Source of the DNA: a virus
Reading direction: 5' to 3' (one strand)
IMG/VR virus record: IMGVR_UViG_3300033049_000018
Location: 1 to 56,032 of that record
DNA length: 56,032 nt
Below the pieces are notes generated by a model. The model made no database searches and was not told the DNA's origin. It saw nothing but the letters and a program-made list of their open reading frames with translations. Below, piece by piece: positions 7,444 to 24,731 of the stretch. A program made the translations under genes and the position numbers. Position 1 is the stretch's first letter. Every line of letters begins with the position of its first letter.

Positions 7444-7452
7444 GTGTATCCC

Positions 7453-9194: not shown

Positions 9195-9196
9195 AG

Positions 9197-9400: not shown

Positions 9401-10788
9401 ATCACCACCGTTAGCTGCTTTGCCGCACGCGTGATTCCAGTATACAGCCACCGCGCCCCTTGATCCCTGAACACACCACTTTCGTCGTGCACGACAACGT
9501 CGTCCCATTCCGATCCCTGCGACTTGTGGACCGTCAGCACGTGGCCCCAATCCATTTGCTCACACGATACCTTAGCGCGAAACACTTCTTGTGGTGACCC
9601 ACTATAGCTGTTGCGCTTGCGGAACAAGTGCTCTTCAAAGAAGCACTGCGCGCCCCACAATCCGTACGGAAGGTTCTCCGCCTCTGGGTCCAAAAGGTCC
9701 AGTTTAATACGAGTGTTTCCGCCGATCAAGTCTCCGTGATCAGTCGTGTTCATGAGGATGGTACCGTTTACCAGTGATGGGAATTGGCGAGAGTTCTTGT
9801 TCACCAAGATTGGTTCACCAGCCATCGGGCCGGTGGCAGTGATACCTAAAGCCGCCCGAATTTTCTTGGTGATCATCCACCGCTTTTTGTGTGTGCCAAC
9901 AAGTATCATGGCATCACGATCCATGTTTAGGGTAACGTCGTCGTCTTGCCTCTTCACGACCTTCACACCATCACCGTAGTCACCGGGGCGCAACAACTCA
10001 CCCTTTCGCGCCAGCGTCGCCAGCCGAATTATCGGATTGTCAGCAGCTTGCCGATGAATTTCTGTCAGGAAAACGTCTGGTTCTTCCATGGCAAAACCCC
10101 ACTCGTCTGCCACGGGCGGCAACTGTCCGGGGTCGCCGATAGCCAGCACAGGGACGTTGAATCGTAGAAGATCGTTGGCCACTTCTGTGCCTACCATTGA
10201 CGCTTCATCAACAACGAATAGCTTGATTCCCGGAGGTATATCCTCTGGGCGCTTGAGGGCGAATGATGGTCCCTCAGAATCCATTGCTTCACGCAGTGCA
10301 TTTTCAAGTTCTGCCACACGCACTTCAAGCTCTCGATCTGACATAGCCTCGAATCTGTCGTCAGCATCACTGTCGGCGTCACGGCGCGTTTCGAGTGCCA
10401 TTTCTGCTGCTTCCAAATCCTTTTGGATAACGTCAGCCTTGGCTCCACGCGGCATATAAATAGCTTTGTGGATTGTCGTAGCCGGTTGGTTCCACCCATC
10501 AGCACGCAGCTTACCGGTCAAGACTTTCGCCGCCTTGCCTGTCGGTGCCATGTACATGACCTGTTCTTCGGTCAATTTCAGGTGGTCGATCATTGTGCCA
10601 ACACAGGTTGATTTACCCGATCCGGCATATCCTGCGAACACAAAAGACTGGCCAACGACTGAACTATCTTCTGTTGTGTCTCCGAAGAACCGATCATAAC
10701 TCGGTTCGTAGTGCTGACTGGCATTCTCATACCAATCAGCGGCCCGCTTCACAGCGGCCCACTGATGATCTGTAAGCGTAATGCCCAT
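9397..10788 (-). CDS. RecD/Dda-like superfamily 1B DNA helicase
   Basis: 463 residues from ATG 10788 (GGAAAG about 10 nt upstream). Motifs in order: Walker A GYAGSGKST (53-61), motif Ia APTGKAA, Walker B VVDEASM, motif III GDPGQLPP, motif V VLTVHKSQGSEW and motif VI YTGITRA. This is the RecD2/Dda plan of a 5'-3' helicase used to open origins or restart forks. An acidic, Arg-rich insertion of about 60 residues (DADSDADDRFEAMSDREL region) sits between motifs Ia and II and may be a coiled coil. Flanked by small coiled-coil proteins. Confidence 0.92.
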   Translation of the reverse strand: MGITLTDHQWAAVKRAADWYENASQHYEPSYDRFFGDTTEDSSVVGQSFVFAGYAGSGKSTCVGTMIDHLKLTEEQVMYMAPTGKAAKVLTGKLRADGWNQPATTIHKAIYMPRGAKADVIQKDLEAAEMALETRRDADSDADDRFEAMSDRELEVRVAELENALREAMDSEGPSFALKRPEDIPPGIKLFVVDEASMVGTEVANDLLRFNVPVLAIGDPGQLPPVADEWGFAMEEPDVFLTEIHRQAADNPIIRLATLARKGELLRPGDYGDGVKVVKRQDDDVTLNMDRDAMILVGTHKKRWMITKKIRAALGITATGPMAGEPILVNKNSRQFPSLVNGTILMNTTDHGDLIGGNTRIKLDLLDPEAENLPYGLWGAQCFFEEHLFRKRNSYSGSPQEVFRAKVSCEQMDWGHVLTVHKSQGSEWDDVVVHDESGVFRDQGARWLYTGITRAAKQLTVVI

Positions 10789-10792
10789 TTGC

Positions 10793-11107
10793 TTAGCTTT
10801 CCAGTTTGTGTCCGGCGTCGGCCTTTTTGGATGGCGACATGGCATCAACATTGACGGGAGCGTCAGCACTGAACAACTTTTCGAGATTTGCGATCAAGGC
10901 TGCGGCGCGGAGTTCTTCTTCCACGGCGGACTTGATTGTTGCATTCTCGGTGTTCTCGACCTGCTTAACGGTTGCGCGGGCGGTCTTGATACGACTTTCC
11001 GCACTAGCCTTCCGTGCACGCTGTGCATCCAGAACAATCTTCAAGTTGGTCTTGATCTTCTCAAATGGCGCGATTGCTTGGGCCACGGTCTTTGGTGTAA
11101 TAAACAT
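10793..11107 (-). CDS. Helical coiled-coil protein of unknown function (104 aa)
   Basis: Almost entirely helical, Ala/Lys/Glu-rich, with heptads from about residue 15 to 75, ending PSKKADAGHKLES. A strong ribosome site, AAGGAG 7 nt before ATG 11107, predicts high expression. It lies between the hairpin at 11131-11162 and the helicase gene. A DNA-binding or scaffold role is possible but nothing in the sequence proves it. Confidence 0.6.
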   Translation of the reverse strand: MFITPKTVAQAIAPFEKIKTNLKIVLDAQRARKASAESRIKTARATVKQVENTENATIKSAVEEELRAAALIANLEKLFSADAPVNVDAMSPSKKADAGHKLES

Positions 11108-11130
11108 AGTTATCTCCTTGTGATGTGATT

Positions 11131-11162
11131 AAGGTAAGCCCATGTCGGGATGGGCTTACCTT
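11131..11162. terminator. Strong hairpin between two minus-strand genes
   Basis: AAGGTAAGCCCAT and ATGGGCTTACCTT form a 13 bp perfect stem with a 6 nt loop. On the minus strand the stem follows the stop at 11183; the plus side ends in TTATTTCATT. It may attenuate transcription between the abundant protein gene upstream and the coiled-coil/helicase genes downstream, or protect mRNA ends. Confidence 0.65.
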
Positions 11163-11182
11163 ATTTCATTAGAATCTACGTG

Positions 11183-11989
11183 TCAACCAAGATTCTTGGT
11201 GCGCGCACCCCGGCGTCCGGCGCGGCCTGTGGGGGCCTCACTTTTCTCCGTTGCTGGCGTATCCGCTACCTTTTCTGACTCTTGTGCCGGAGCGTCCGCC
11301 ACATCATCATCATAGTCTGCATCATTTTCGCCAGTCGCGGCCATCATGTCTTCCGGCGACAGCCAGTCAACAATCTTCATCACAGGGGCGTGGCGAGTAC
11401 CAACACCCTTCACTTTCGACTTGTACTTGTTAGTCGTCAGTTCGATAACCGGGTCTTTACCGGCCTCGATCTTGTAACGACGACCAAACGCCTTACGCAG
11501 TGCATCAAAGCCGCGAATGCTGACTCCTCCACCCAAGCGCATGGTGTATTCCTCGTCGTTGCCGTCCATGGACAGCATTTCGAACGAAGCTTGGATGCTC
11601 CACCCGTCCCGGAAATTAGCCGGGTCTTCCTTCTGCATCTTGCGGATTTCGTCCAGCGTCATATCAATGTCGCCTTCAGGATCATCCGGCAAGAAGTCTG
11701 GCATGTGCTTATTCAGCAACGGTTGTTCCCGAAGGAGTTCATCAACCGTTCCCATCACCTTGCCATCCCACCAGAACGACCAAATCCAACGCGCTTCAAA
11801 GATGTTCGCGATGAACTTAGTACCGTGGGCGATTTCGTCTTCGTCCGAACCTGCGAGATACTCGCCGCTGGCCCCACGAAACTTAACGTAGGTGGACATT
11901 CCGGCTTCCGCGCCTGCGCTGAACGGGTCAGCGCCTTCGTGGTTCATTACTGCGTTCTGTGCAGACTGATCTACCAGTGAATTACTCAT
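11183..11989 (-). CDS. Conserved phage protein next to replication genes
   Basis: 268 residues from ATG 11989 (AAGGA about 10 nt upstream). The N-terminal ~190 residues carry STYVKFRGASGEYLAGSDED, then WIWSFWWDGKVMGTVDELL. The C-terminal ~65 residues are low complexity, acidic (DADYDDDVADAP) then basic (GRAGRRGARTK). Similar proteins occur in phage replication modules, and a single-strand-binding or replication-accessory role is conceivable. I do not recognise a named family, and the tail lacks the usual SSB acidic tip. The strong hairpin downstream suggests a separately regulated, abundant product. Confidence 0.6.
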   Translation of the reverse strand: MSNSLVDQSAQNAVMNHEGADPFSAGAEAGMSTYVKFRGASGEYLAGSDEDEIAHGTKFIANIFEARWIWSFWWDGKVMGTVDELLREQPLLNKHMPDFLPDDPEGDIDMTLDEIRKMQKEDPANFRDGWSIQASFEMLSMDGNDEEYTMRLGGGVSIRGFDALRKAFGRRYKIEAGKDPVIELTTNKYKSKVKGVGTRHAPVMKIVDWLSPEDMMAATGENDADYDDDVADAPAQESEKVADTPATEKSEAPTGRAGRRGARTKNLG

Positions 11990-12088
11990 CGTATGGTTTC
12001 CTTGTTTTTTGGTCTCTTGTTTGACGGTGCTTAAATTAACCCGACACACCCACCGACAAGTGTGACGACAATCCGCTCATGCGGAATT

Positions 12089-12364
12089 CTATTTAAGATG
12101 TGGTGGGATCACCCCATTGACCTGATCACCCTCAGTCAGTAAGCGCAAGAGCATGGCGATGGTTTGGACCACCTCACCCTCAAGCTCTTCCCAAGTTAGG
12201 CGATCCTCGGCGTAATGTACTGCCGCACGGACAACTTCACCAGCTTCTTCTGCCACTTTTAGCGCGACATAATTTGGCTGGGGGAATTTTTTCTTGGCCT
12301 TTTGCATTGACACTGTTGCCTTGGCAAAGATAGTGTCGATGTATGTTTGTTCTTTTGCGTTCAT
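12089..12364 (-). CDS. MazG-like nucleotide pyrophosphohydrolase
   Basis: 91 residues. All-alpha NTP-PPase core: KVAEEAGEVVRAA (EExxE) followed by EELEGEVVQTIAM (ExxxE). The usual ExxD aspartate of the second motif is replaced by Gln in EVVQTI, so metal binding may be altered. MazG-type enzymes hydrolyse NTPs or dNTPs, sanitise the pool or lower ppGpp. Overlaps the nuclease gene by 4 nt. A small hairpin (TCCGC-ATGA-GCGGA) lies in the 40 bp downstream. Confidence 0.75.
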   Translation of the reverse strand: MNAKEQTYIDTIFAKATVSMQKAKKKFPQPNYVALKVAEEAGEVVRAAVHYAEDRLTWEELEGEVVQTIAMLLRLLTEGDQVNGVIPPHLK

Positions 12365-13500
12365 TGTACTGCCGTAACAGTCAGCTTTTCAAAGCTGCCG
12401 CCTTCCTGCATATATCTATCGGGGTCAACGCCGTCAGCAATCATTAATGCTTTCGACAGGGTTTTTCGTCCAGCCTGTGATGTGTATGTGACTTTCCAAT
12501 CTCCGCCAACTACGCGACTTTCTCCCTTGGCGATCAACGCTTGCCTGATTTGCTCGTTGATTTCCTCAAGGGCGACCTTTGTTTCTTTACCAACTTTACT
12601 GAGGGTATTTCGTTGTAACACAAGGGGCGTAAGGCTGTCAATGAATTTCTGGTCCTGTTCGCTGATTTCTTGCTTGTTCAACGCTTTTCTTGCTGAAGGT
12701 ACCCGCTCCCGCGTTATTTCGTTGCAGGCGTCCTGATAATTGCAGTACTTGCATAGGCCATCCAGCTTGCCTTCTGTGGCAAACGCGTTGGCTGTGTCTT
12801 CTGCAAAAACCTTTTCGTTGCGGGCGCGCCCAATATTGTAAACCGCGTCGTCGTACGGAATAGGGAACAAGCGCATGTCTGTCAACCAAGATGCGTTGAT
12901 GTACATCAGAGCCGAGAACTCTGGCTTGTAGTCCGTGGTGTCACGAACCAATCCCATCTGCATTTGCACCTGCCCACGGTGAACCGGCTTTTCGTGTTCC
13001 AGCGTCAGGCGCGGGTCAAACGATTTCATTTCAAGATTGAAACAATCGGACTTAATGTCAGGCACATCGTAGAATGCCAAAACATCGGAAGGGGCGTCGA
13101 TAACGAGTCCGTCAAGTGTCGCGGAATGGATGCCATCAATGATGGTGTCTTGTCCGTCTCCTGCCATGATCAAGTCCATACCACGTCGGCGCAGACCACT
13201 CTCCATTGCCGGGACAATGAAGTGGTTTTCTATCATGTTGCCACGTTCCATAGCACCCCAATTGTCTTCGTGATCCGGGTCTGTCTTGACGCCGAACTCG
13301 TGTCCGCGCTTGGTGAACCACGTCTTACGGATACACCCAAAGCACTCAGACGCACCGACTGTCAACCGACGATCTTGTTTCCACGTCTTTTGGTTGTTGG
13401 CAATGTGTTCGTCGTAAAGGTCTTCGAACGCAAAACCATCTTGTGGGATTGAATCCGGCACACCATTGGCGATCAGTTCATCAAAATATGTCTTAGTCAC
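12361..13500 (-). CDS. Cas4/RecB-like exonuclease (PD-(D/E)XK, Fe-S cluster)
   Basis: 379 residues. Domains: ASECFGCIRKTWF near 50-62 (first cluster cysteines and the RK.W entry helix), a conserved His in the N-terminal helix region, HSATLDG (motif II Asp), FNLEMKS (motif III E-x-K) and a Gln-containing helix GQVQMQMGL, then CKYCNYQDAC near 255-264 supplying the remaining cysteines. This is the Cas4/AddB-like 4Fe-4S nuclease plan. In phages it resects DNA ends for recombination. A helical domain of about 100 residues follows. Precedes MazG with a 4 nt overlap. Confidence 0.85.
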   Translation of the reverse strand: MTKTYFDELIANGVPDSIPQDGFAFEDLYDEHIANNQKTWKQDRRLTVGASECFGCIRKTWFTKRGHEFGVKTDPDHEDNWGAMERGNMIENHFIVPAMESGLRRRGMDLIMAGDGQDTIIDGIHSATLDGLVIDAPSDVLAFYDVPDIKSDCFNLEMKSFDPRLTLEHEKPVHRGQVQMQMGLVRDTTDYKPEFSALMYINASWLTDMRLFPIPYDDAVYNIGRARNEKVFAEDTANAFATEGKLDGLCKYCNYQDACNEITRERVPSARKALNKQEISEQDQKFIDSLTPLVLQRNTLSKVGKETKVALEEINEQIRQALIAKGESRVVGGDWKVTYTSQAGRKTLSKALMIADGVDPDRYMQEGGSFEKLTVTAVQ

Positions 13501-13512
13501 TGGACAATACCT

Positions 13513-14130
13513 TCATTTAGTTTTAGATTGCTCACGTTCGAATACTCCCGTATCCATGAGGTAATAAAATACTCTGGCTGTGTCTCTGACGTCCACTAGC
13601 GCATCGTGTGCTCCGTCAGATTTGTACCCAAACAGCTTCTGTGTACACTCTTCCAGTTTTGGCCACTTCCACTGCCTGCGCCTCTTTGGCGTGGCCTTGA
13701 TCAGATCAATGCTGGCAAGCATCGTGCAGATAACTTTCTTCCCTTCAAACGGATCGCGGTATTCGGTGCCGGTTTCGTCCGCATACACTTTTCCTGCGTG
13801 ACGCATTACTACAATATCGAACGCGGCATTGTGCGCAACCAAGATATCGGCTGTGGCGACGTAATCGAGCCACACCTCGTATGCAGAAATAAGCTCAGTC
13901 CCAAACTCGTCAGCCAGAGCATTTGTGATGCCAGTGATTTCCGCAGCTTTAGGGTCTACTTTCCATTGTCCATGAGTTTTGATCATGAAGTTAACGGCAC
14001 CCATTTCCGCACGGTTTGCAGCATCCAACTTCATACCTAACTGAACAGGCATTGGCTGGTCTGGGTGGCAGTGATCCAACTTTGGCTTCGTAAGCCCGGT
14101 TGTTTCTGTGTCAAAAAATAGTACGTTCAT
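13513..14130 (-). CDS. DnaQ-like 3'-5' exonuclease (DEDDh)
   Basis: 205 residues. Exo I FDTETTG (6-12), Exo II HNAAFD near 99-104, Exo III HDALVDVRD near 174-182 with the catalytic His, so DEDDh type. Probably proofreading or DNA end trimming; PolA in the next upstream gene has its own exonuclease-like motif, so this may serve recombination or RNA turnover. It has its own promoter (14153-14180). Confidence 0.88.
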   Translation of the reverse strand: MNVLFFDTETTGLTKPKLDHCHPDQPMPVQLGMKLDAANRAEMGAVNFMIKTHGQWKVDPKAAEITGITNALADEFGTELISAYEVWLDYVATADILVAHNAAFDIVVMRHAGKVYADETGTEYRDPFEGKKVICTMLASIDLIKATPKRRRQWKWPKLEECTQKLFGYKSDGAHDALVDVRDTARVFYYLMDTGVFEREQSKTK

Positions 14131-14152
14131 GATTCGTTTCCTTAGTAGTGCC

Positions 14153-14180
14153 CTTATATCAGAGCTTCAATCCTTGTCAA
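14153..14180 (-). promoter_or_regulatory. Sigma70-like promoter for the exonuclease operon
   Basis: Minus strand: TTGACA (14180-14175, 6 of 6), 16 nt, TATAAG (14158-14153, 5 of 6). It lies in the 58 bp gap between PolA and the exonuclease gene, pointing at the latter. Confidence 0.75.
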
Positions 14181-14188
14181 GAGTTATT

Positions 14189-16426
14189 TTAGTGAGTTTC
14201 AGCCCACGTCATACCTATATTCGACTCCGCCGCCACAGGGCAGTTGAACCCGAAGTACTTGCCAGCTTCAGGTGCCATCTGTTCCATAATCTCGGCGGCG
14301 CGTTCTGCCAAGTCTTCACGCACTGAGATTTGAATCTCGTCGTGAGACCAGCTACAGAACGCGTATTCCTTACCTACGCCGTGATCCCAGCCTTCCGCAT
14401 AGAAGGCGTCGTCAACCATGAGACACCATTTCTTGGCGATCAAAGCCCCATCTGACTGCAACCGCATATTCAAGGCGGCGTGCTTGGCCCTAATATAAAG
14501 GCGGCGTCCGTCGAGGCCCGCAATAGTGTTGCCGTTCTTACGCGCTTCTTTATGAATCTCCTTGATCGCTTTGTTCAAGGACGGCATAGCTGCCATAAGT
14601 TTGGCACGCAACTGCTTTCCTAGTGAACGCTGGCGTCCTTCAGAAGCTAGTGGCTCAACGATTGATCCTAACTTGCCGTCCCCACCTCCATACATGGCTG
14701 CGTACAAAAGACGCTTGGCGATGGACCGCGAAATACCGGCGCTGTCTGCATTCCTCTGGTGGATATCCCCGTTGAGAACGATATCAACAAGTTCACCATC
14801 ATCGAACTGGAATGTCAGATTTGCAAGGCATCGGAATTCAATGCCGGACAGGTCACAACCAACTAATTTATATCCAACCGGAACAGTAAATAACTCACGG
14901 CAATCCCACCCGTGGTCGCCTTTACGCCCACGAACATAGATAGCCCATTCACCCTTTTTCTCGCTCCAACTGGCGTCCACGAATGTCCCAGCATCCTTGT
15001 GCTCGACAATCCAATCTAGGCCCTTGTTGTAATCCTTCGTCTCCAATACTTTTACGGCGGGTACCTGAGAGATATTTGGACGTGAGTGCGTAGCGCGACC
15101 GGTGACAGTGCCACCGACGTTAACTCGCCCATGAATACGCCCGTCGCTTCGTAGGAGCTTCAACCAGCCGTTCTTTCCGTCTACAACCATCCCTATACGC
15201 TTTTTGTAGTAGAACAACTCAGCGAGCACCCTTGCCAGCGGTATCTCGTCTACTAAGTTACGCAGAATCTCATCGTCAACTCTGGGGCTACCTTTCTCGG
15301 TGAAGTCCTGCGGTGTCCACCCATAAAGATGTGACAGCCGATCAACAATCTGCTGGCGACTATTGGGGTTAAAGTCGCGCAGTTCCACACGTACGAATGG
15401 CACGTCTTTTACAGTACTGGCGCGCATCTTTCGATAGTCGCCATCTAGTTTTGCATTCGATTTGGAGTAGCTTATCGTGCGCTTTGGTACGTCGATGTTG
15501 CCCCACGAACGGCGTTTTTTATTCTCGCCGCGATCTAAATCAATTCCAGAGCCATCCTCTTCTTGAGAATGCCAACGTGATGGGCGGAACCAGCGTCCAA
15601 TCTCGTCGGTTGCTTCGCCTGCAAAAATATCATATTCGGCCTGCAACTTGTCTCCAAGCTTGCGTGCGCGGACTTCATCAAAGAAGAACCCGTTGCGTTC
15701 CTGCTGCACCATAAGTGCGTGAATTTCGTGCTCAAGACGCATCGACTCGCGCGACCAATTGGTTTCGTCAATCTTGATCCACAATTTGTCGTTGACGTCC
15801 ACGTCGAGAACCATGTAATCGTGCATTGGCACATTCCACGTGCCCCACACATAGTGGTGCAGTTCTTCTTTTGTGGGCGGCTCTAGGCTGCGCTCTTTGT
15901 GTAGCGCCTTCAATTCTAATTCGCGATCTTTTTTGTAATCGCCTTTGGCCAAACCAAGCCGCTGTCCCCAAGCTTCCAAACCCTGCGTACCAATGAACTT
16001 ACCCTCAAGTGTGCCACGTGCAGCCATCCTGAAGTCTTTTTCTTTGATGTCAGCAAAGCACATGCGCACCATAACCAGTGTGTCGATTATGCGCGCGTCC
16101 GTTTGAAAGTCTGGATAGATCATTTCAATTGCTGGTAGATCAAAGTCAATTATGTTGTGACCGATCAAGGTCACGGCATTCGACAATAACTCAATACCTT
16201 CAGACAATGGACGCACGTAATTGTGGCCCAACTCACGCAGGGCATCAAGGACCAGAGAATTCAGAGGAAATAAATCGTCGTTCACATAACTGCGATGCTC
16301 TCCGGTTTCTATGTCTTTTATAGACAGGCAATGAATACGGTCCATGCAGAACGGCGGGTCAATGTGCGCCGGGAGCAGCCCGTTCGTTTCAATGTCGAAG
16401 ATTATGTGATCGAATGCTGATTGCAT
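14189..16426 (-). CDS. polA: Family A DNA polymerase (PolI-like) with 3'-5' exonuclease domain
   Basis: 745 residues. The N-terminal exonuclease domain starts FDIETNG (10-16) and continues with GHNIIDFD. Polymerase motif A is GCDLSGIEFR, the O-helix region RSIAKRLLYAAMYGGG (motif B, Arg/Lys/Tyr-Gly), and motif C is SHDEIQI with the second catalytic Asp. This is the replicative polymerase of T7-like or related phages. The start overlaps the upstream exported-protein stop as TAATG. A promoter downstream drives the next gene. Confidence 0.95.
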   Translation of the reverse strand: MQSAFDHIIFDIETNGLLPAHIDPPFCMDRIHCLSIKDIETGEHRSYVNDDLFPLNSLVLDALRELGHNYVRPLSEGIELLSNAVTLIGHNIIDFDLPAIEMIYPDFQTDARIIDTLVMVRMCFADIKEKDFRMAARGTLEGKFIGTQGLEAWGQRLGLAKGDYKKDRELELKALHKERSLEPPTKEELHHYVWGTWNVPMHDYMVLDVDVNDKLWIKIDETNWSRESMRLEHEIHALMVQQERNGFFFDEVRARKLGDKLQAEYDIFAGEATDEIGRWFRPSRWHSQEEDGSGIDLDRGENKKRRSWGNIDVPKRTISYSKSNAKLDGDYRKMRASTVKDVPFVRVELRDFNPNSRQQIVDRLSHLYGWTPQDFTEKGSPRVDDEILRNLVDEIPLARVLAELFYYKKRIGMVVDGKNGWLKLLRSDGRIHGRVNVGGTVTGRATHSRPNISQVPAVKVLETKDYNKGLDWIVEHKDAGTFVDASWSEKKGEWAIYVRGRKGDHGWDCRELFTVPVGYKLVGCDLSGIEFRCLANLTFQFDDGELVDIVLNGDIHQRNADSAGISRSIAKRLLYAAMYGGGDGKLGSIVEPLASEGRQRSLGKQLRAKLMAAMPSLNKAIKEIHKEARKNGNTIAGLDGRRLYIRAKHAALNMRLQSDGALIAKKWCLMVDDAFYAEGWDHGVGKEYAFCSWSHDEIQISVREDLAERAAEIMEQMAPEAGKYFGFNCPVAAESNIGMTWAETH

Positions 16427-16728
16427 TATTTTACCGTGTATGTGTAGGTGCCATTTCCATAGTCAACAAAATAGACTGACTTGTCTGTCCCGTCAACATC
16501 TTTTACGTGTGTCAGCGTGCCTTTAGACATGAAACCATATCTCTGTGTAAAATAGCCACAGGTAGTGGTCTCAATTAGTTGCTTTCGTATTTCTGGGTCC
16601 ACAGATGCCTCGGCGGCGGTAGCACTGTTGCAGAAGAAGTCTACATCTTCTCCGTAGGCCGTTGTCGCCCCCACCACGCAGAATAGCGTGACGAGGACCA
16701 TTGCTTCAAGAAATTTAGTGTGTGTCAC
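16426..16728 (-). CDS. Predicted exported protein with a cysteine pair
   Basis: 100 residues. Signal peptide with hydrophobic core AMVLVTLFCVVGATTA and cleavage after AYG. The mature part has two cysteines (DFFCNS, TTCGYF) and ends in aromatic strand-like repeats (YFVDYGNGTYTYTVK). No family recognised. It sits between the DNA polymerase and the PvuII-like nuclease genes, overlapping each by 1-4 nt, an odd place for an envelope protein. Confidence 0.72.
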   Translation of the reverse strand: MTHTKFLEAMVLVTLFCVVGATTAYGEDVDFFCNSATAAEASVDPEIRKQLIETTTCGYFTQRYGFMSKGTLTHVKDVDGTDKSVYFVDYGNGTYTYTVK

Positions 16729-17258
16729 GCCACCGCCATTTTCTTACCAGAAATCCATGCCGGGGCCACGTCTTTCATATACATGACCGTACCAACTTGG
16801 CGGACGAAGTCAATGGGGATTTTTGGATTGTTGAGGTGGTCCCTCTTTCCCCCAAGTGCCAACTCCCACTTCATGAAAATTGATTCCATTTCTATTGACT
16901 CTACAAGGTATGCTTCATCCAGCGTGATGTTGTCGTACATTGCAAACACCCACCGACGCGTGCGGTAATTACCAATCGTCTTCTTGGTTAGATGGTGATT
17001 GGTAGTGAAACCCCGAACGTTCTTGGCGGTGTTTACCGTCTTGACCTCGTATTCATTTCCCATGCGGTCGGCGTAGTCTGCTCCCATTCGTCCGGGCACA
17101 ATATCGAGACCTGTTGCAACGGCAAGTTGAACAACCTTTCCGCCGTTGTCAGCAAAAATATCCGGCACGCCGTATTGGTCGGCGAGGGCTTGGAATGCTT
17201 GGATTCCGGGCCACAGAGATTCAATCTCCGCGTAGCGCATATTAAGATGCGTTGGCAT
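16725..17258 (-). CDS. PvuII-like type II restriction endonuclease, no methyltransferase nearby
   Basis: 177 residues from ATG 17258. It aligns along its whole length with the PvuII endonuclease (157 aa) as I remember it. Shared blocks include DIFADNGGK (33-41; PvuII DIFQDNGGK), GLDIVPGRMGADYADRMGNE, YEVK, GFTTNHH, WVFAMY and NNPKIP. PvuII catalytic Asp58, Glu68 and Lys70 correspond to Asp61, Glu71 and Lys73; site-reading His84/His85 to His88/His89; Asn140/Asn141 to Asn143/Asn144; Asp34 to Asp37. Changes: PvuII Ser81 is Thr85 and His83 is Asn87. PvuII cuts CAGCTG as a dimer. No methyltransferase is encoded in the window and I found no CAGCTG in it. Possible jobs: cutting host or competitor DNA. 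Confidence 0.88.
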   Translation of the reverse strand: MPTHLNMRYAEIESLWPGIQAFQALADQYGVPDIFADNGGKVVQLAVATGLDIVPGRMGADYADRMGNEYEVKTVNTAKNVRGFTTNHHLTKKTIGNYRTRRWVFAMYDNITLDEAYLVESIEMESIFMKWELALGGKRDHLNNPKIPIDFVRQVGTVMYMKDVAPAWISGKKMAVA

Positions 17259-17856
17259 ACTGCAGCCCTCCTGATTTGTGTGCGTGTTGCATTGCTTTGT
17301 CGTACTCCTGCATGAACATTTTCCTTGCCAATCTCGGACGCCACAGGCAGAAGTTTTCGTCAATCTCCTGTAGCGTGTAATCGGCTTTCATTCCAGTATC
17401 CCACAGTTCCGATGGGATGCTGGTTATCTCCTGACTTTCGGCATAGAGAATCTGCATATCAGCCCACTTGACAACACGTTCAATTTCGTCGTCGTGCGGA
17501 ATGCCTAGATAGTGGCGCATAAGCTCCCCAGCGCCGTGCTCCAAGCGCTTGTATTCCGGCAGAATGGATTTGAGAGGGCTTGGCACATCAGTCCAATAGG
17601 CTTCTGGCATATCATGAGCAATGGCCCACGGCAGTGCGCGCTTTGGGGCACCGACCTTCACCAACAGCCAGTACACATACACACTGTGTTGTGCCACGCT
17701 GTAAATGTCGTCGTCGTATTGATCTGACAGGTGCCCGTTGTACCGACATATTCTCGACAGCGATGCTGCCATGTCTGGTACGTGAAATTCAGTCGGGTCG
17801 TTATTGAAATAGTGGTACTTACGGCCTGATGCCGTTAAAATCCATGGGCTTTCCAT
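17242..17856 (-). CDS. HD-domain phosphohydrolase (YfbR-like 5'-nucleotidase)
   Basis: 204 residues. HD superfamily metal ligands: His in SVAQHSVYV, the HD pair in AIAHDMPEAY and a later Asp in VVKWADMQ. The sequence HDMPEAYWTDVPSPLK is characteristic of YfbR-type 5'-deoxynucleotidases, which dephosphorylate dNMPs. It would tune the dNTP pool with MazG and the dNMP kinase. Own promoter at 17882-17910; overlaps the PvuII-like gene by 17 nt, so both share that promoter. Confidence 0.83.
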   Translation of the reverse strand: MESPWILTASGRKYHYFNNDPTEFHVPDMAASLSRICRYNGHLSDQYDDDIYSVAQHSVYVYWLLVKVGAPKRALPWAIAHDMPEAYWTDVPSPLKSILPEYKRLEHGAGELMRHYLGIPHDDEIERVVKWADMQILYAESQEITSIPSELWDTGMKADYTLQEIDENFCLWRPRLARKMFMQEYDKAMQHAHKSGGLQYANAS

Positions 17857-17881
17857 GCTTTTTCCTTATTTGTGTGATAGC

Positions 17882-17910
17882 TTTGTACTAGGTGTTTTAC
17901 AACGTGTCAA
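17882..17910 (-). promoter_or_regulatory. Sigma70-like promoter for the HD nucleotidase / PvuII-like operon
   Basis: Minus strand: TTGACA (17910-17905, 6 of 6), 17 nt, TACAAA (17887-17882, 4 of 6). It lies in the 61 bp gap before the HD gene. Confidence 0.7.
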
Positions 17911-17917
17911 CAGGTAA

Positions 17918-18274
17918 TTACTCTTTATGACAGCGTATGAGCCTTTTAGGATCAGGTCGGCACACGAGAATACCCCCGCTGGATTCAATGCGGGTCCGAT
18001 TCCCGGATCGCTTAGTGGTGCGTCCAACGGTTGCGCCATTGGATGCGATGAAGTCCACGCCACGGTTGTTGTTCACCCGCTCGCGAACCCGTTCATGTGT
18101 TCTTTGATTGACCCAAATGGTCCTGTCTCGATGGTCTTTTCGCTGGGTCCACTGGTCACCAGCGGCGTCTTTACAGACGGCTTGACCTCGGTGATTCGTT
18201 CGACACGGAGTCTCAGCCATCGCTGACATCGTCGTCATAAGGATAAGGGGTATCGCGATAATCCAGTGTGTCAT
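17918..18274 (-). CDS. Predicted exported basic protein with four cysteines
   Basis: 118 residues. Signal peptide with core HWIIAIPLILMTTMSAMA and cleavage at AMA/E. The mature part is very basic (Arg/Lys-rich), with cysteines at PCRTNHRGQAVC near its start and LVCRPDPKRLIRC at its end, likely disulfide-linked pairs. GGAG 7 nt before ATG 18274. It overlaps the SNF2 gene 3' end by 62 nt. No family recognised; an envelope-binding or cell-wall role is possible. Confidence 0.7.
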   Translation of the reverse strand: MTHWIIAIPLILMTTMSAMAETPCRTNHRGQAVCKDAAGDQWTQRKDHRDRTIWVNQRTHERVRERVNNNRGVDFIASNGATVGRTTKRSGNRTRIESSGGILVCRPDPKRLIRCHKE

Positions 18275-21107
18275 GTATTACTCCCATTTTGTCCAACAGC
18301 GCAATCGCCATCCGTGCTTCGATGGACCCATCTACCACAAGATGCTGGACAAGTACAGCATTAAGTTGGCCGTACCGCCACGCCCTGTCTTCAGCCTGTT
18401 CGATGAGTGCTGGCACCCAATCCAACTCAGCGAACACAACGAAACTGGCACGCGTTAGCGTGAAGCCAACACCCATGGCGATTATGTTTCCAAGGATCAC
18501 ATCGTACGAACCTGATTGAAAGTCGTCAACGACCTGCTGCCGCTTGTTTGATGCCACTGATCCTGTGACCACACCAACGCTTATGCCTACCTTCTCCAAG
18601 CGTTCTTTTATTGTCGATATCACAGACTTGTGATACGCAAAACAAATCACTGGCTCCTCGGAATCTACCAGCTTCTTGATGTGTTCTACCACCATTCCAA
18701 CTTTTGCAATTGCAACTTCTTCTCGTGCCAGACTTATTTCTGTGAACAAAATTTGATCAGGTTCTTCCATTGTCTTTACAGCTAAATCCCAATTAGGAGT
18801 TTCGCTGTCTTGTTCTTCGAGTGCTTTTGCAAGCTTGTCTGTGAGAGATTCAATGGCCTTTATGTATCGGAATGACCGGTCTTCTTCGCTTATTCCAATT
18901 ATACTTTCGTACACATTCAGCGCAGATTCCATTCGAGACAGTTCTTTTTTAACTGGCTTCTCTAATTTATCCTGCGGCAACATTATCAATTCGCGAGTCT
19001 TGTCTGGCAATTCTTTTAATACAGAGCGCTTGTCTCTGCGTACCATAAATCTCTCACGCATCAGCCGATTCAATTCGTCGGAATTGGATGCTCCCATAAC
19101 ATTTAAATGGTCACCTTCATAATATGCACCGCAGAAGTCGAAGACAAAATCATCATAGTTCTTACCGAGACCGGGACGATCACAGATTCTAATAAGGTTC
19201 CATAGCTCAACCGGCTTGGATAGAATAGGTGTTCCGGTCAGAAACAGTGTCTTGGTTGCTTCAATTGCAGTATAGGTCTTTGGCTTTCTGGTTTGTATTC
19301 CATTTTTTCTGGCACCCTTTCGTGCCCCGCCGAACACACATAATGTGCGCAGTGCCGTCTTTGTTTTTAAAAGATGCGCCTCATCACAAATCAGCAAGTC
19401 CCACGACACATCTTTTACGGCGTCGTTAAACGCATCCAGCATGTCGTAATTTATCATCACAACATCTGTGTCAGGCCACACGTGCTCAGTCCAGCGCTTT
19501 ACCCACTTTTCTTCCACGCCTTCGACTATTTCTTTTACTGTTTTTGTTCTGGTTTTTGAGTGTGCAATGCCTACGGAAAGGCCATGCACATCCCATTTTT
19601 CCCATTCCCGCTTCCAGTTCACTTTCAATGACGCTGGGCACACCACTAAAACACGTTTGGCTTTTGTTGCATTGTGCACTCCGATTGCCTGAATTGTATT
19701 GTGTGTCACAACATAATCTCTAGTGACGTATAAGTTGTCAGCCGCAGCTACAGAAATACATACGTGAGGACTCTTCCCTACCTTGGTAATAGAGTCAATA
19801 AACCTTCGGACACGGTGGTGCCTGCGATTTGGGGACCATTCGGTGGCTTTTCTAGTCAAGTGAAACGGGCATGTGTCGAGCGTTACGTTGATTCTCGTTT
19901 CATCGGACTTTCCATCGTGTCGCACGTAGGTACGCTCACTGGCAATGCCTCCTAAAGACCACACAAGCTGCTGTACGTCCGCCGCCAGATAAGGATTGCA
20001 CGAATGGAACGTTATTCTGTTTTGGCGTGCACTTCCATCAGAATCCATGAGACCCCGCAAAAGCTCAAGCCGTTGTTCTGCTGAGGCTGTTAAATATTCC
20101 GCTGGAATTCTTTTTTTATCACCCTTAACTGCCAGATTTAATCGCCGTAATTCGGTCATATATGTTGATGGAGATGAGCCACAGCGTGGGCGACTTATTG
20201 TATACTGCTTACAGCGATTAGTTTTATCTGCTTTTCGGGCGCTGTGTAGTCGGTATCCCGGCAGAATCTCTGCTTCCAGTCTATCTTTTATTTCTGACTC
20301 AAAATTTGCGATTGACACACATGGGCTGGATTGATGTAAACTCCCATCACCCAGCAGCACCCCCAATGTATATGGGGGTATCACAAACTTTCTCTCGGGA
20401 AATTCCACAGGACCCATAACCGGTACAGTCCACTTTTTGCGTGTACCTTCTTTCAATCCACGATCAGATATTTCAGATAGAGGTTTTACAGTAAAATCGT
20501 TTGTGCGTTTACGTCTATTGGAATCTGCCACAGCCCATAAGTGTGAATTGCTACAGAAAGTGGACGCACCGTCAGAAAACTTTACCTGATATGTATCTAA
20601 AATACCTTGCGGAAAAACTCCAACTACTTTGGTTTTTCTCCCGTCCACCCCAACCACAAAATCCCCAACACGCAACTCTCCCATGGTTGTCCACCCATTC
20701 GGGGTCAACACAGGCTCATCTACTGGTTGCGATTTACCTAGACCGGGTGGGTCAGCGATCAGAGTGTGTTTGCGTTTTATGGCGTACTCTATCCCAGCCT
20801 TTTGAAAGGGTAGGTAATGCTCCCCGTCAGGGGCCGGAAAGATTGTTTCGGTATCCTCGGCCCAAGATTCCGCTACAATAGCCTCGCGCACGCGCTCAGC
20901 CACTACCAGATGCTCTTTGGCGGCACCGACCGCGTGCTTTATGAGTGGACGTGCGTTCTCAATGTCTGGTGTGGTCCACCCCTTCGTATTGACGTCCCAC
21001 GACCATCCATTCCTTTTAAACATGAAACGATCCGGCTTTTTACACCCTGATCGTCCATCTGCAAATCGTGTGGTGAATTCACCGTTTATGCGGTCAAATG
21101 CTGCCAT
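18213..21107 (-). CDS. SNF2/SWI2-type helicase interrupted by an intein
   Basis: 964 codons; 619 residues after removing the intein (residues 126-470). N-terminal part (1-100) resembles the small domain before SMARCAL1-like helicases. Walker A reads DPPGLGK / T-IQAIG across the intein. Further motifs: VVCPASLKVNW (Ia), LLICDEAHLLK (II), LFLTGTPI (III), VVTGSVASNKRQ (IV), GVGFTLTRA (V), QAEDRAWRYGQ (VI). SNF2 proteins translocate on double-stranded DNA; phage forms help recombination, fork regression or replication. The gene overlaps the PD-(D/E)XK gene by 22 nt. Function of the host protein depends on splicing because the intein splits the ATP-binding loop. Confidence 0.92.
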   Translation of the reverse strand: MAAFDRINGEFTTRFADGRSGCKKPDRFMFKRNGWSWDVNTKGWTTPDIENARPLIKHAVGAAKEHLVVAERVREAIVAESWAEDTETIFPAPDGEHYLPFQKAGIEYAIKRKHTLIADPPGLGKSQPVDEPVLTPNGWTTMGELRVGDFVVGVDGRKTKVVGVFPQGILDTYQVKFSDGASTFCSNSHLWAVADSNRRKRTNDFTVKPLSEISDRGLKEGTRKKWTVPVMGPVEFPERKFVIPPYTLGVLLGDGSLHQSSPCVSIANFESEIKDRLEAEILPGYRLHSARKADKTNRCKQYTISRPRCGSSPSTYMTELRRLNLAVKGDKKRIPAEYLTASAEQRLELLRGLMDSDGSARQNRITFHSCNPYLAADVQQLVWSLGGIASERTYVRHDGKSDETRINVTLDTCPFHLTRKATEWSPNRRHHRVRRFIDSITKVGKSPHVCISVAAADNLYVTRDYVVTHNTIQAIGVHNATKAKRVLVVCPASLKVNWKREWEKWDVHGLSVGIAHSKTRTKTVKEIVEGVEEKWVKRWTEHVWPDTDVVMINYDMLDAFNDAVKDVSWDLLICDEAHLLKTKTALRTLCVFGGARKGARKNGIQTRKPKTYTAIEATKTLFLTGTPILSKPVELWNLIRICDRPGLGKNYDDFVFDFCGAYYEGDHLNVMGASNSDELNRLMRERFMVRRDKRSVLKELPDKTRELIMLPQDKLEKPVKKELSRMESALNVYESIIGISEEDRSFRYIKAIESLTDKLAKALEEQDSETPNWDLAVKTMEEPDQILFTEISLAREEVAIAKVGMVVEHIKKLVDSEEPVICFAYHKSVISTIKERLEKVGISVGVVTGSVASNKRQQVVDDFQSGSYDVILGNIIAMGVGFTLTRASFVVFAELDWVPALIEQAEDRAWRYGQLNAVLVQHLVVDGSIEARMAIALLDKMGVIHDTLDYRDTPYPYDDDVSDG
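19698..20732 (-). mobile_element. Intein with LAGLIDADG homing endonuclease in the SNF2 Walker A motif
   Basis: 345 residues inserted exactly between Lys and Thr of GLGKT. N-terminal block A begins Ser1-Gln (SQPVDEPVLTPNGW..GELRVGDFV), block B has SNSHLW with the conserved His, block F/G ends YVTRDYVVTHN, so the terminal His-Asn pair is present and Thr is the +1 residue. Ser as residue 1 in place of Cys is allowed. Homing endonuclease motifs: LGVLLGDGS (about 248-256 of the precursor) and LLRGLMDSDGS (349-358). All splicing and nuclease residues seem intact, suggesting an active element. Confidence 0.92.
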
Positions 21108-21607
21108 GCTTTTCTTAGCTCTTCCGGTGTTTTTGCATCCCAGCCAAGCAACAAATCATGTCGTATGTTGTGGCAATCGGCGTGGAATTTGAAGTTGTTG
21201 GAGAAGTCGTATTCTCCCTTCGTGTGAAACTTACTGTCGGCGTAGAACGCTGTCTTCGGATAAAACCCCAGTACATACGCTTTGTGCATGCGCGGAGTGA
21301 CCCTCACAAAGAAATAATAGTCACATTTTTGTGCGGTGTTGAAGTCTGCAACCGACGCCTCGTAATTACCTTTTGGTTTCGGTCCAGACTTCTTGGTCTT
21401 TACATCAACGGTCTTTCCGTCTTTAACAAGATCGTAATCAAACGTGTTATCTACGTCAGCGTCAAGCGCCTGCGCAACAACAAACTCGCCGATGCAGCCA
21501 ATTAAATTGCCCTCCCCCTTTTCTATGGAGTTGTGCAACACACCAATTTCTTGCGCCTTTACGAATGACTCCCCGACCATGTCACGGGTAACTGTCACTT
21601 CGAACAT
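21086..21607 (-). CDS. PD-(D/E)XK nuclease-like protein
   Basis: 173 residues. Pattern GEFVVAQAL (Glu), FDYDLVKDGKTVDVKTKK (Asp, then D-V-K-T-K), typical of a PD-(D/E)XK core where the Lys follows Asp. A later HxNxRHD segment. Similar small proteins occur in many phages near replication genes; the substrate is unknown (Holliday junctions or gapped DNA are candidates). The start forms TGATG with the upstream small gene. Confidence 0.72.
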   Translation of the reverse strand: MFEVTVTRDMVGESFVKAQEIGVLHNSIEKGEGNLIGCIGEFVVAQALDADVDNTFDYDLVKDGKTVDVKTKKSGPKPKGNYEASVADFNTAQKCDYYFFVRVTPRMHKAYVLGFYPKTAFYADSKFHTKGEYDFSNNFKFHADCHNIRHDLLLGWDAKTPEELRKAWQHLTA

Positions 21608-21765
21608 CAGCGCGCTCCGCGCTTTTGATTCTTTCTCATGACGCTCTCGTTAAGGTGCCGTGTACCAGCCTTGTCCTTGGCGCGCTGCATCTGCCGACGA
21701 ACTTGCCGCGACGGCGGCTTAGTCACCACTTCATTCACTGTGTTTGTGTTATTTTCGTTTTTCAT
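21607..21765 (-). CDS. Small basic protein (52 aa)
   Basis: Starts MKNENNTNTVNEVV, then a strongly basic Arg/Lys/Gln-rich stretch (RQVRRQMQRAKDK) to the end (KNQKRGAR). Possibly a nucleic-acid-binding peptide. ATG 21765 has AAGGAG 10 nt upstream; the longer frame to 21855 overlaps the RNA ligase gene and lacks such a site. Confidence 0.6.
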   Translation of the reverse strand: MKNENNTNTVNEVVTKPPSRQVRRQMQRAKDKAGTRHLNESVMRKNQKRGAR

Positions 21766-21769
21766 GACT

Positions 21770-22774
21770 TCATATCTCCTTACATTTTTCCAAGAACCAT
21801 GTCCGGGCTGCGCCAGCAACCCCACGCTGTACATCTTTCCAAACAAGCCCCGCATCTGAAAGTTCCTCCACAGATTCCTTGATGATATCCGTGTTTACCC
21901 ATTTGAGGAAATGCCCTGTCTTCTCTGGAATGGCGTTTCCACCAAGCTCCTCAGACAGGCCCTGTTGGCACCGCGCCTCGGTGACAAACATTTCAACGAA
22001 CTCCGAAACACCCTCTGGCACAACGATGTCGCGTGCAGCCGATGGCCCTTTGTTAACGTTGTGACCCTCAACCTTGACCTTGAACGTCAGGTGATTGTAC
22101 CAATCAACGTCTAGCTGTCCGTCCAGCGGATCACTTCCGGGGTTGCAGACAGGGCTGATAACCCAGCCCTCCCCCGGTGCGTCGATGCCAAAGATTCCGT
22201 GAATGAATGGGTCGCGTTCCTCGATATCTTTCACACGTTCGTTCAACATATCTCCGAATGATTCACATTCATCAGCGTTACCAAAGTCAACCGACTCTTC
22301 AAAGATGATGTCCCACGGAATTACGATGATGTTGTCGAGGTCTGGGATGGTCAACTCAATGTCGGCTGGTGTGGTGATGTAATTGTCACCTGTACGCACG
22401 GCGAAGACGAAGAAATACTTGGCATCAAGTTTGGTCACAGCATCCCCTTTTTGGATACCCAATCCGCCCCATTCTCCGTAGTAAATAACGTCTCCGACCA
22501 TCGCACGCAGCTTGTCGGTGCTAGGCATGCGCCACGCTTCCTCGTTCTCCTTGACCCAAGCAGCAAACCCGTAGTTATCATCACCAACGAAGATGTCACG
22601 CGAACGTGATTGTGCTACCACTGTACCGTCCCCGCCCAAACGCACAGCCGCGTTTGACCCATGCAATTTGATCTTTGCACCGTACTGAACAACAGCCGGG
22701 GTGTCAAAATATTGCTGGTGGCGGTAGACGTGGGCAAACGATTCAATGCTTGTCAGTTTTTGGAATTTGCTCAT
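21770..22774 (-). CDS. RNA ligase, Rnl2-like
   Basis: 334 residues. Nucleotidyl-transferase motif I KIKLHGSN with Lys36 as the AMP acceptor, motif III-like YYGEWGG, motif IV EGWVIS and motif V LTFKVKVEG. The N-terminal layout (FQKLTSIE.F) matches Rnl2-type ligases, which seal nicks in duplex RNA with a 3'-OH and 5'-phosphate. A second, Rnl1-type ligase is encoded at 30274. Possible roles are tRNA or rRNA repair. ATGA overlap with the upstream small gene. Confidence 0.85.
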   Translation of the reverse strand: MSKFQKLTSIESFAHVYRHQQYFDTPAVVQYGAKIKLHGSNAAVRLGGDGTVVAQSRSRDIFVGDDNYGFAAWVKENEEAWRMPSTDKLRAMVGDVIYYGEWGGLGIQKGDAVTKLDAKYFFVFAVRTGDNYITTPADIELTIPDLDNIIVIPWDIIFEESVDFGNADECESFGDMLNERVKDIEERDPFIHGIFGIDAPGEGWVISPVCNPGSDPLDGQLDVDWYNHLTFKVKVEGHNVNKGPSAARDIVVPEGVSEFVEMFVTEARCQQGLSEELGGNAIPEKTGHFLKWVNTDIIKESVEELSDAGLVWKDVQRGVAGAARTWFLEKCKEI

Positions 22775-22953
22775 TGGCTGTGCACCCCTTTTATGATGGT
22801 GACCACACCATTTTGGTCACGTGAAATTAGTTCCCCGTAATTCACAACAGGCTGATCTTCCCACATACGTGTGATTGGGTTGATCTGTGTGTGTGACACT
22901 GGGCGTGTCTCTTCTTTACCGTCAACTATGACGGTCATGCGCAACTGGTCCAT
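22771..22953 (-). CDS. Small hypothetical protein (60 aa)
   Basis: MDQLRMTVIVDGKEETRP onward; beta-rich, ends GVVTIIKGVHSQ. ATG 22953 follows AGGAGAAGAAA, a leader identical to that of the next upstream gene, suggesting a duplicated ribosome site. No family recognised. Confidence 0.62.
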   Translation of the reverse strand: MDQLRMTVIVDGKEETRPVSHTQINPITRMWEDQPVVNYGELISRDQNGVVTIIKGVHSQ

Positions 22954-22982
22954 TTTCTTCTCCTGATATAATTCGTGTGGTG

Positions 22983-23399
22983 TTAACCCGCAAGTGAACA
23001 CAAAATCCAGCAAGGCTCACCCTGAATATCGTGTTCTTTTGCCCACGCAGTGAACAAGCTAACAGCCATTGGGGAAACCTCTGGCAACCCATCCTTGAAT
23101 CCGTGTGGGTAACCTCTACTGGCGGTTACTTCGGTATTTGGTACCGCCAGTATGTACATTGCATAGTCGTAAGAGCAGTGCATACACAAACCAACTGGGT
23201 ACGAATCGTGAGCTTTTTTCCTAACAGCGTATTCCGCGTCTTCGGTGTCTGAAACGATGTCAATGTACTTGTCCATATCGACACCGTAGTCGTCCAGTTC
23301 TTCTTCAGTTAATACCTGCTTGAAAAACTCAGGAACGTCACCGTCTTCGCCCTCTAGCAAGATGCCATAAACCAAAATTCCGTCGGATGAGTAACCCAT
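22983..23399 (-). CDS. Conserved phage hypothetical protein (138 aa)
   Basis: Begins MGYSSDGILVYGILLEGEDG, a start seen in small conserved phage proteins of unknown role. Acidic in the middle (EEELDDYGVDMDKYIDIV), with cysteines near LCMHC and EPCWILC. AGGAG 6-9 nt before ATG 23399. Between rIIB and the RNA ligase. Confidence 0.68.
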   Translation of the reverse strand: MGYSSDGILVYGILLEGEDGDVPEFFKQVLTEEELDDYGVDMDKYIDIVSDTEDAEYAVRKKAHDSYPVGLCMHCSYDYAMYILAVPNTEVTASRGYPHGFKDGLPEVSPMAVSLFTAWAKEHDIQGEPCWILCSLAG

Positions 23400-23420
23400 T
23401 TTCTTCTCCTAGATGGTGGT

Positions 23421-23445
23421 GCCCCGCAACATGGTGCTGCGAGGC
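23421..23445 (-). terminator. Hairpin after rIIB
   Basis: GCCCCGCA and TGCGAGGC pair with one mismatch around a 9 nt loop in the 53 bp gap between the rIIB stop and the next gene start. No U-run, so it may be an attenuator or RNA-processing signal. Confidence 0.45.
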
Positions 23446-23452
23446 TATCTTG

Positions 23453-24715
23453 TTACGCGGCGGCTCGGATGGCTTTCAGCCATTCTTGTACAGTCGTGCG
23501 TGGGATATCATATTCCCGCTGGAAGCCACGCTGCCCGATATCATCAACGATATTGACGACCTGTGTGGCTGTGAACGCCTGCCGAGTGGCCTCATGCAAA
23601 AACGTGAGTGTTTCCTCAGCTACTTCTTCTTCCTCGATGGGTATGACGACACGAAGAACGGACTCTTCACCATCTGGCGACACGAATACTTCATCGCCAT
23701 CATAGAAGTGTACCGAAAACAAGGAGTAATCCCCTACGCTGTTGCGGGCAATATCTCCGGCGTCCCAAGCAGCGTTGTCCGGGTGATCTACATCGGTTAC
23801 GTCGATACATTCCTGATAAGTGACAGTGCCAATTTCGAGGCTTCCCGGCTTGATAACACAGTCACCATCTTCAGGCCATTCATCATGCAGTTCCCACTCA
23901 TCCGGCACGATATAGCCGTTGGCCATTGCCGTTGGTTTGGCGGCGTCGATGCGGTTTTCATCCGGCGTAGAAGCAACAACTTGGGCGCTTTCGATCTTGT
24001 CCCGGTGGCGCTCGTCCTCAACATCGCCAAGAACCAAATATTCACATACGCGCATCTTGGAATAGTTGTAGTCATTCGGCACCGACACCACGTCCCGTGG
24101 GTTGACCTTCACAGCGATAACCGTTTTGTTGCCCCAGAACGAGTCCAGATAATGGGATGCACACACATGCAAACCAGCACTACAAGTCCGTGTGGGGTCC
24201 TCCACCACATCGGCGCGGTCCATTTTAACTACCTTGCCGGGGCTGTTGTCGAATGTACCACTGTGGACGTCGGTATAGTCGTCGCGGACACCTTTGAAGG
24301 CCACGAAGCAGCCATCTTCGGTCAACGGTGTATCGAACCGTATGATGAATTCAAACAGACAATCGCGGGACACTTTCGACGGATTCTGCATGACGTTGTT
24401 CATGAAATTGACCCACGGTGCGGCGTCAAAGCCCTCGTCCATCATCAACACCAGCCGTGTCGCCAACGCATTGTGAACAGGCGCGCCATTGTAGAACACG
24501 GTGCTGCCGACAACCTTCACCTTACCAGATGTCAGACGGGCCATTGCCGCGCGCTTGTCCAGAAGTTGTGTGATCAATCCGGCGTCGTGCTTTGACCCCT
24601 TCAGGTGTTCAGACAGTGCGTTGAATCCGGCATGTGTGCGCGGAATCTTGTTCAAGGCTCCGTTGATCAGGATTGTGATGTTGGTCTCTGTGACCGTAAA
24701 TGGAAAGTTAGACAT
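23453..24715 (-). CDS. rIIB: rIIB-like protein
   Basis: 420 residues. The stretch GCFVAFKGVRDDYTDVHSGT, then DNSPGKVV, and CSAGLHVCASHYL are hallmarks of T4 rIIB-type proteins of many phages. The C-terminal 50 residues (FTATQVVNIVDDIG, then RTTVQEWLKAI) look like a helix-turn-helix, a domain found in some rIIB homologues. An acidic linker (IEEEEVAEE) separates them. With rIIA it is linked in T4 to lysis inhibition and to resisting the lambda Rex exclusion system; molecular function is unknown. rIIA lies immediately upstream, 16 bp away. Confidence 0.88.
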   Translation of the reverse strand: MSNFPFTVTETNITILINGALNKIPRTHAGFNALSEHLKGSKHDAGLITQLLDKRAAMARLTSGKVKVVGSTVFYNGAPVHNALATRLVLMMDEGFDAAPWVNFMNNVMQNPSKVSRDCLFEFIIRFDTPLTEDGCFVAFKGVRDDYTDVHSGTFDNSPGKVVKMDRADVVEDPTRTCSAGLHVCASHYLDSFWGNKTVIAVKVNPRDVVSVPNDYNYSKMRVCEYLVLGDVEDERHRDKIESAQVVASTPDENRIDAAKPTAMANGYIVPDEWELHDEWPEDGDCVIKPGSLEIGTVTYQECIDVTDVDHPDNAAWDAGDIARNSVGDYSLFSVHFYDGDEVFVSPDGEESVLRVVIPIEEEEVAEETLTFLHEATRQAFTATQVVNIVDDIGQRGFQREYDIPRTTVQEWLKAIRAAA

Positions 24716-24731
24716 GTTAACTATCTCCTTG

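Follow-up and report, generated by a model that had tools for sequence, protein, structure and literature searches.

A restriction enzyme is, as a rule, lethal in the absence of its methylase. Among the closest known counterparts of the enzyme described here is R.PvuII (PF09225), which cleaves CAGCTG as a dimer and is encoded on plasmid pPvu1 of Proteus vulgaris. We analysed a 56,032-nt stretch of viral DNA (IMG/VR virus record IMGVR_UViG_3300033049_000018, positions 1 to 56,032; hereafter, the window) that carries the gene of a solitary PvuII-type restriction endonuclease (16725..17258, minus strand; 177 aa). The phage protein is like R.PvuII in its full-length homology (~40%), its fold, and its catalytic and recognition residues, and unlike it in lacking an adjacent methylase or controller (C) protein, in having extra terminal segments, in lying within a replication block, and in forming its own clade. 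Solitary restriction endonuclease genes without an adjacent methylase gene are also known from prokaryotes; those are cellular, however, and many have a separate methylase elsewhere (PMC3488263), whereas the phage enzyme is viral, clade-inherited, and without an M.PvuII-like gene in complete genomes. Viral Type II-like enzymes have been described in chloroviruses (e.g., those packaged by PBCV-1), where their presumed role is to degrade host DNA as infection begins, but the chlorovirus restriction genes always adjoin a methyltransferase gene (PMC7019647), whereas roseophages appear to be protected by site absence and no cognate methylase was found in them. General avoidance of Type II sites is a known strategy of non-temperate phages, the enzyme being the host's (Rusinov et al., 2018, PMC6286503); in roseophages, one of the lost sites is the predicted target of the phage's own enzyme. 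Phage T5 cannot degrade the DNA of its host without A1, and the nucleotides released are broken down by Dmp (PMC13250531). The corresponding block of CbK-like phages has an A1-like and a Dmp-like gene beside the polymerase, and that of roseophages a Dmp-like and a PvuII gene; T5 A1 is not a homologue of PvuII, the only pointer to functional replacement being gene position. We propose, with a probability of about 0.6, that roseophages carry a naked restriction enzyme which is tolerated through a pre-existing absence of its site and whose best-supported use would be the destruction of host DNA.

The 177-aa protein matches PF09225 in Pfam at E=3e-39 (134.9 bits against a curated cut-off of 25) and PvuII crystal chains in PDB at E ~1e-36, with ~40% identity across residues 12-160. 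The catalytic residues D61, E71, and K73 correspond to D58, E68, and K70 of PvuII (PD-(D/E)xK), and the CAGCTG-reading residues D37, H88/H89, and N143/N144 correspond to D34, H84/H85, and N140/N141; both sets are invariant among the phage proteins and P. vulgaris PvuII. The AlphaFold model built from 14 input sequences has a pLDDT of 88 (44 with 3 sequences). Its twelve best Foldseek matches in PDB are all PvuII, the first being 40% identical, with a TM-score of 0.94 (by target length). A preliminary description of this DNA, made from the letters by eye, had aligned the protein along its length with PvuII and picked out the same catalytic residues and His and Asn pairs; Pfam, PDB, and the alignment bear this out, and modelling on PvuII structures, which it had suggested, returns the same fold. 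The phage enzymes also have conserved additional segments, MPTHxNLRY at the N-terminus and MYxKDVxPxW at the C-terminus. The gene product is apparently an intact, working PvuII-type endonuclease, with the recognition residues and the genome-wide absence of the site pointing to CAGCTG as its specificity.

Word counts over the whole window (1..56032, not strand-specific) are indicative of an extensive loss of restriction sites, with CAGCTG, SAGCTS, RGATCY, and most CCWGG missing. No copy of CAGCTG was observed against 14.4 ± 3.5 expected from dinucleotide shuffles, 16.4 and 6.2 expected from second-order and maximal-order Markov models, respectively, and 12.9 (minimum 5) when synonymous codons within the open reading frames (ORFs) were shuffled 300 times. 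Plain composition was rejected as the explanation by all four of these controls. The one-base neighbours CAGCTT (25), AAGCTG (16), CAGCTA (10), and TAGCTG (8) add up to 59 copies. The preliminary description, which reported no CAGCTG where roughly a dozen were expected and about 55 one-base neighbours, was right on the first point and close on the second, but it overlooked CAGCTC, GAGCTG, and GAGCTC, which have no copies either, and ~15 other 6-bp palindromes at zero. It had further proposed a count over the whole phage genome against a Markov expectation: the five complete genomes that carry the gene hold 0 CAGCTG against 287 (second-order) or 294 (maximal-order) expected. Across 11 non-redundant carrier contigs (129 kb) there are likewise 0 against 20-36 expected, and four viral contigs encoding PvuII together with a methylase have 7 CAGCTG in 55 kb.

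The methylase families PF01555, PF00145, PF02086, and PF02384 have no match in the window or in the five complete carriers; PF00145 is present in phiCbK alone. None of the 21 families found in the window by a defence-library scan is a methyltransferase. A tblastn search with M.PvuII gave no match at E<=1 in the window, the complete carriers, or the carrier contigs, and found a methylase beside 10/10 of the other PvuII restriction genes that were covered, of which six are on plasmids and four on viral contigs (L306-L309). With P. vulgaris, which has a methylase according to its record, 11/11 PvuII restriction genes outside the clade are accompanied by one. C.PvuII has no match at E<=1e-5 in the carrier contigs, and the annotated neighbours of the phage gene are an HD-domain nucleotidase (HD) and a DNA polymerase. 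On the sequence evidence, no cognate PvuII-type methylase accompanies the phage enzyme.

The window, a virus record with no stated completeness, is a 56-kb fragment of a phage type whose genomes are ~147 kb long. Five complete ~147-kb genomes carry the gene (DSS3P8, V10, DSS3_MAL1, MD18, and RcXuper), their hosts being roseobacters and Rhodobacter; it is also present in IMG/VR contigs L003, L004, L222, L223, L224, L228, L300-L303, and L304/L226 (two records of one stretch). The order HD, PvuII, polymerase holds in the complete carriers and in all contigs that reach that far, sometimes with a small additional ORF in between. In the PvuII tree, the solitary enzymes of the phages cluster together as a single group (support 93/95). 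For the MAL1-MD18 pair, dN is 0.04 for PvuII and 0.04 for the polymerase, with dN/dS of 0.09 against 0.06; PvuII dN/dS in other phage pairs ranges from 0.10 to 0.18. The PvuII gene is therefore under purifying selection, like the polymerase, and its protein is kept by selection. The best reading of these data is a single gain of the enzyme in the common ancestor of the roseophage clade, followed by inheritance within the clade and one loss, in RpAliso. This phage is nested within the carrier clade as the sister of RcXuper, from which it differs at 44% of fourfold sites; its PvuII gene is gone, and HD and polymerase abut. A host origin of the gene was rejected, as PF09225 genes are absent from 395 Rhodobacteraceae genomes in a search that recovers all known carriers. 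A scan of genome contigs with the PvuII-like protein gave no match. The GenBank entries of MAL1 and V10 already label the gene as PvuII, and the published DSS3P8 and MD18 papers make no mention of a restriction enzyme.

We then compared the absence of the site with that of the gene. Among PvuII-less relatives, CAGCTG is at 0 in phiCbK, Cp1R7A-A1, Mwe-JY26, Bajun, CcrPW, and Domovoi, and RXM has 1 copy. Each CbK-like genome has 7-31 of its ~50-59 testable 6-bp palindromes at exactly zero and the others at expectation; members of RGATCY, CCWGG, GRGCYC, and SAGCTS are among those missing, and the missing set differs among close relatives. SAGCTS (CAGCTC, GAGCTG, GAGCTC, and CAGCTG) is a genuine Type II specificity, methylated by M.Ble402III of Beggiatoa (PMC4675945). 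It is missing from the window, RXM, Cp1R7A-A1, phiCbK, and Mwe-JY26, with at most 1 copy of any member, and the zero of CAGCTG in the window follows from this wider avoidance. CMGCKG (MspA1I-type) was rejected as the purged motif, since CAGCGG and CCGCTG are at expected levels. The enzyme was likewise rejected as the original cause of the purge: PvuII-less relatives and RpAliso also lack CAGCTG, and many other palindromes are at zero. The preliminary interpretation therefore stands in part. The enzyme is solitary, PvuII-like, under selection, without a PvuII methylase, and in a genome without its site; the claim that the site was purged because the phage carries the enzyme is contradicted by these relatives and by the SAGCTS-wide loss.

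The crown of the carrier clade presents a different picture. CAGCTC (445 copies) and GAGCTG (465) are both above expectation (~2x) in the crown carriers, and CAGCTG is at 0. Like the other GRGCYC members, GAGCTC is at zero there; the exception is MD18, in which 13 copies of GAGCTC and 42 of GGGCCC are back and CAGCTG is the sole SAGCTS word still at zero. MAL1 and MD18 differ at 43% of fourfold sites, a divergence that was enough for GGGCCC to rise from none to 42 copies. Because CAGCTG alone stays at zero after SAGCTS has relaxed, a CAGCTG-specific keeper is needed, for which the enzyme encoded by the phage itself is the obvious and most likely candidate.

Sampled marine roseobacter DNA has 0.5-0.7 CAGCTG per kb, as its composition predicts and without avoidance, which amounts to roughly 2,000-3,000 cuts per roseobacter genome if the sites are unmodified. 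In phiCbK, RXM, and Mwe-JY26, a T5 A1-like protein (phrog_1745) is encoded ahead of the polymerase; phiCbK, CcrPW, Bajun, Domovoi, RXM, and Cp1R7A-A1 have DNA methyltransferases and/or T5 A1-like proteins where the roseophages have PvuII, beside the polymerase. No T5 A1 homologue was found in the roseophages. PvuII therefore sits at the position of a host-takeover gene, beside the same type of nucleotidase.

Probably, ancestors of the CbK-like superclade lost SAGCTS, and hence CAGCTG, before the gene arrived, most plausibly under host restriction. This prior absence would have permitted an ancestor of the roseophages, immune for want of CAGCTG in its genome, to adopt a methylase-less endonuclease on a single occasion; since then, the enzyme would penalise each new CAGCTG, so that the zero persists in the crown. 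During infection, the enzyme would be produced along with HD and the replication proteins and would cut the presumably unprotected host chromosome. The fragments could feed the phage exonucleases and the Dmp-like nucleotidase, resulting in host shut-off and possibly a supply of nucleotides, with CAGCTG-bearing plasmids and unrelated co-infecting phages as collateral or secondary targets. The cleavage specificity, the timing, and host DNA as the main target are the conjectural parts of this scheme. In its full form, a lineage already without SAGCTS took a naked PvuII as a host-genome shredder in place of a T5 A1-type gene, self and non-self are told apart by an absent word, and the enzyme now keeps that word out; we offer this chain only tentatively, with our doubts slightly outweighing our confidence.

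Several observations weigh against the proposal. RpAliso, without the gene, has 0 CAGCTG against 41 expected; the enzyme is thus not needed to explain the zero, and its loss there shows that it is dispensable. Either the gene was lost recently from RpAliso, or a different keeper maintains the absence. A host isoschizomer of PvuII is an alternative keeper of the crown zero and would explain RpAliso as well. An unrelated CAGCTG methylase may also protect host DNA. Finally, the crown phages carry a distant putative methyltransferase (discussed below); however, RpAliso does too, and M.PvuII belongs to a different family.

If the proposal is right, the clade appears to solve the lethality of a naked enzyme by a genome-wide absence of its site combined with offensive use. 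The phages would then form a clear natural series: the site was purged in an ancestor, the enzyme was gained once, the wider motif relaxed while CAGCTG remained at zero, and the gene was lost in one lineage. Such a series makes it testable whether the purge preceded the weapon. The proposal would also point to a likely host-takeover nuclease in phages that can be cultured and whose marine bacterial hosts are of ecological importance.

The best surviving alternative, though in our estimate an unlikely one, is that the enzyme is a weapon against unrelated co-infecting phages, prophages, and plasmids and not against the host chromosome, the phage itself being immune without the site. A solitary endonuclease and an absent site are just what such a weapon requires, and some roseophages do have CAGCTG (29 copies in RDJL Phi 1 and 7 in DSS3_VP1). 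However, close relatives including RpAliso have zero sites, as do the N4-like phage DSS3P2 of the same host and EE36P1, so that the commonest rivals would be immune; the gene lies in the replication and nucleotide block and not in an accessory region; and exclusion by chloroviruses, when tested, was not due to their restriction enzymes (PMC7019647). Since no close relative offers a site for the enzyme, we favour host DNA as its target over the exclusion of close rivals.

Ranking next, and again improbable, is the possibility that the absence of the site reflects nothing but avoidance of host Type II enzymes, the PvuII-like protein being a neutral or repurposed passenger, e.g., with relaxed or changed specificity. 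The breadth of the palindrome loss, the zero of CAGCTG in RpAliso and most PvuII-less relatives, and the sufficiency of SAGCTS avoidance for the zero in the window all agree with it. A passenger would not, however, be expected to experience purifying selection as strong as that on the polymerase or to retain all catalytic and site-reading residues; CAGCTG would not be expected to remain alone at zero in the crown once SAGCTS had relaxed; and a naked active enzyme would kill a phage that had sites.

It is very improbable that the enzyme belongs to a split restriction-modification system. The candidate methylase is a protein of ~200 residues with an NPPW motif (phrog_799, 'DNA methyltransferase'), which is encoded in every complete crown genome, far from PvuII. 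In DSS3P8 it lies at 13103-13732, is annotated as hypothetical, and is ~60 kb from the PvuII gene. However, it is also present in gene-less RpAliso and, in divergent versions, in PvuII-less phiCbK, RXM, Mwe-JY26, and Cp1R7A-A1 (in RXM and Cp1R7A-A1 it lies in the HD-polymerase region); M.PvuII, an N4-cytosine enzyme, is unrelated to it; and with CAGCTG at zero, there is nothing to protect. The preliminary description was right that the window encodes no methyltransferase, as far as the four Pfam families and the defence scan reach; the search it proposed for a methylase or control protein in the rest of the genome found no M.PvuII in the complete carriers and no C.PvuII in the carrier contigs, but did reveal this distant putative methyltransferase. 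A free-standing homing-type element inserted between HD and polymerase is hardly credible: the gain or loss at that junction is clean and there are inteins and HNH inserts nearby, but a cutter of a 6-bp palindrome cannot home when its site is missing in all relatives and CAGCTG is absent throughout RpAliso with its empty junction, and the gene has a single origin and is inherited within the clade.

The genes around the enzyme that are described here all lie on the minus strand of the window. Directly upstream is the HD-domain deoxynucleoside 5'-monophosphatase, which is T5 Dmp-like (17242..17856; phrog_318, 2e-46), overlaps the PvuII gene by 17 nt, and is its neighbour in every carrier examined. 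Between PvuII and the polymerase, the ORF list has a small ORF of 100 aa with a possible signal peptide (16426..16728), whose start overlaps the PvuII stop codon and which has no PHROG match; in other carriers, this position is empty or occupied by different small ORFs. The conserved downstream neighbour is a T7-like family A DNA polymerase (14189..16426), with 64-68% identity to roseophage polymerases. From HD through PvuII and the 100-aa ORF to the polymerase, the end of each gene overlaps the start of the next, so a single mRNA probably serves for the translation of all four. A DnaQ/Pol III epsilon-like 3'-5' exonuclease (13513..14130; RNase_T family among the window proteins) belongs to the same gene run as PvuII and the polymerase and is syntenic in relatives. 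A SNF2-type helicase (18213..21107) is a conserved upstream member of the block. It has an intein-like insert after the P-loop, such that only 488 aa align with the DSS3P8 helicase, which is uninterrupted; the helicases of L228 and L003 are interrupted as well. The polymerase gene is interrupted at residue 577/578 in L228 (11719-12371), L003 (7567-8084), and L302 (6553-7298) by inserts of ~520-745 nt, each probably an intein or intron.

Other words also depart from expectation in these phages. GTTAAC is strongly over-represented (observed/expected) in RXM (27/3), Cp1R7A-A1 (33/5), and phiCbK (50/4), and CTGCAG in DSS3P8 (137/55) and V10 (135/56); CTGCAG is nearly absent in the window. The non-palindrome GATGAC/GTCATC has 0 copies in the window against ~34 expected and is not among the absent words of the complete relatives. 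The N4-like phages DSS3P2 (FJ591093), EE36P1 (FJ591094), and N4 (NC_008720) combine zero CAGCTG with zero GTCGAC. Phage lambda has 15 CAGCTG. The window also encodes a Thg1-like tRNA-His guanylyltransferase domain (PF04446, 9e-30), which is unusual for a phage.
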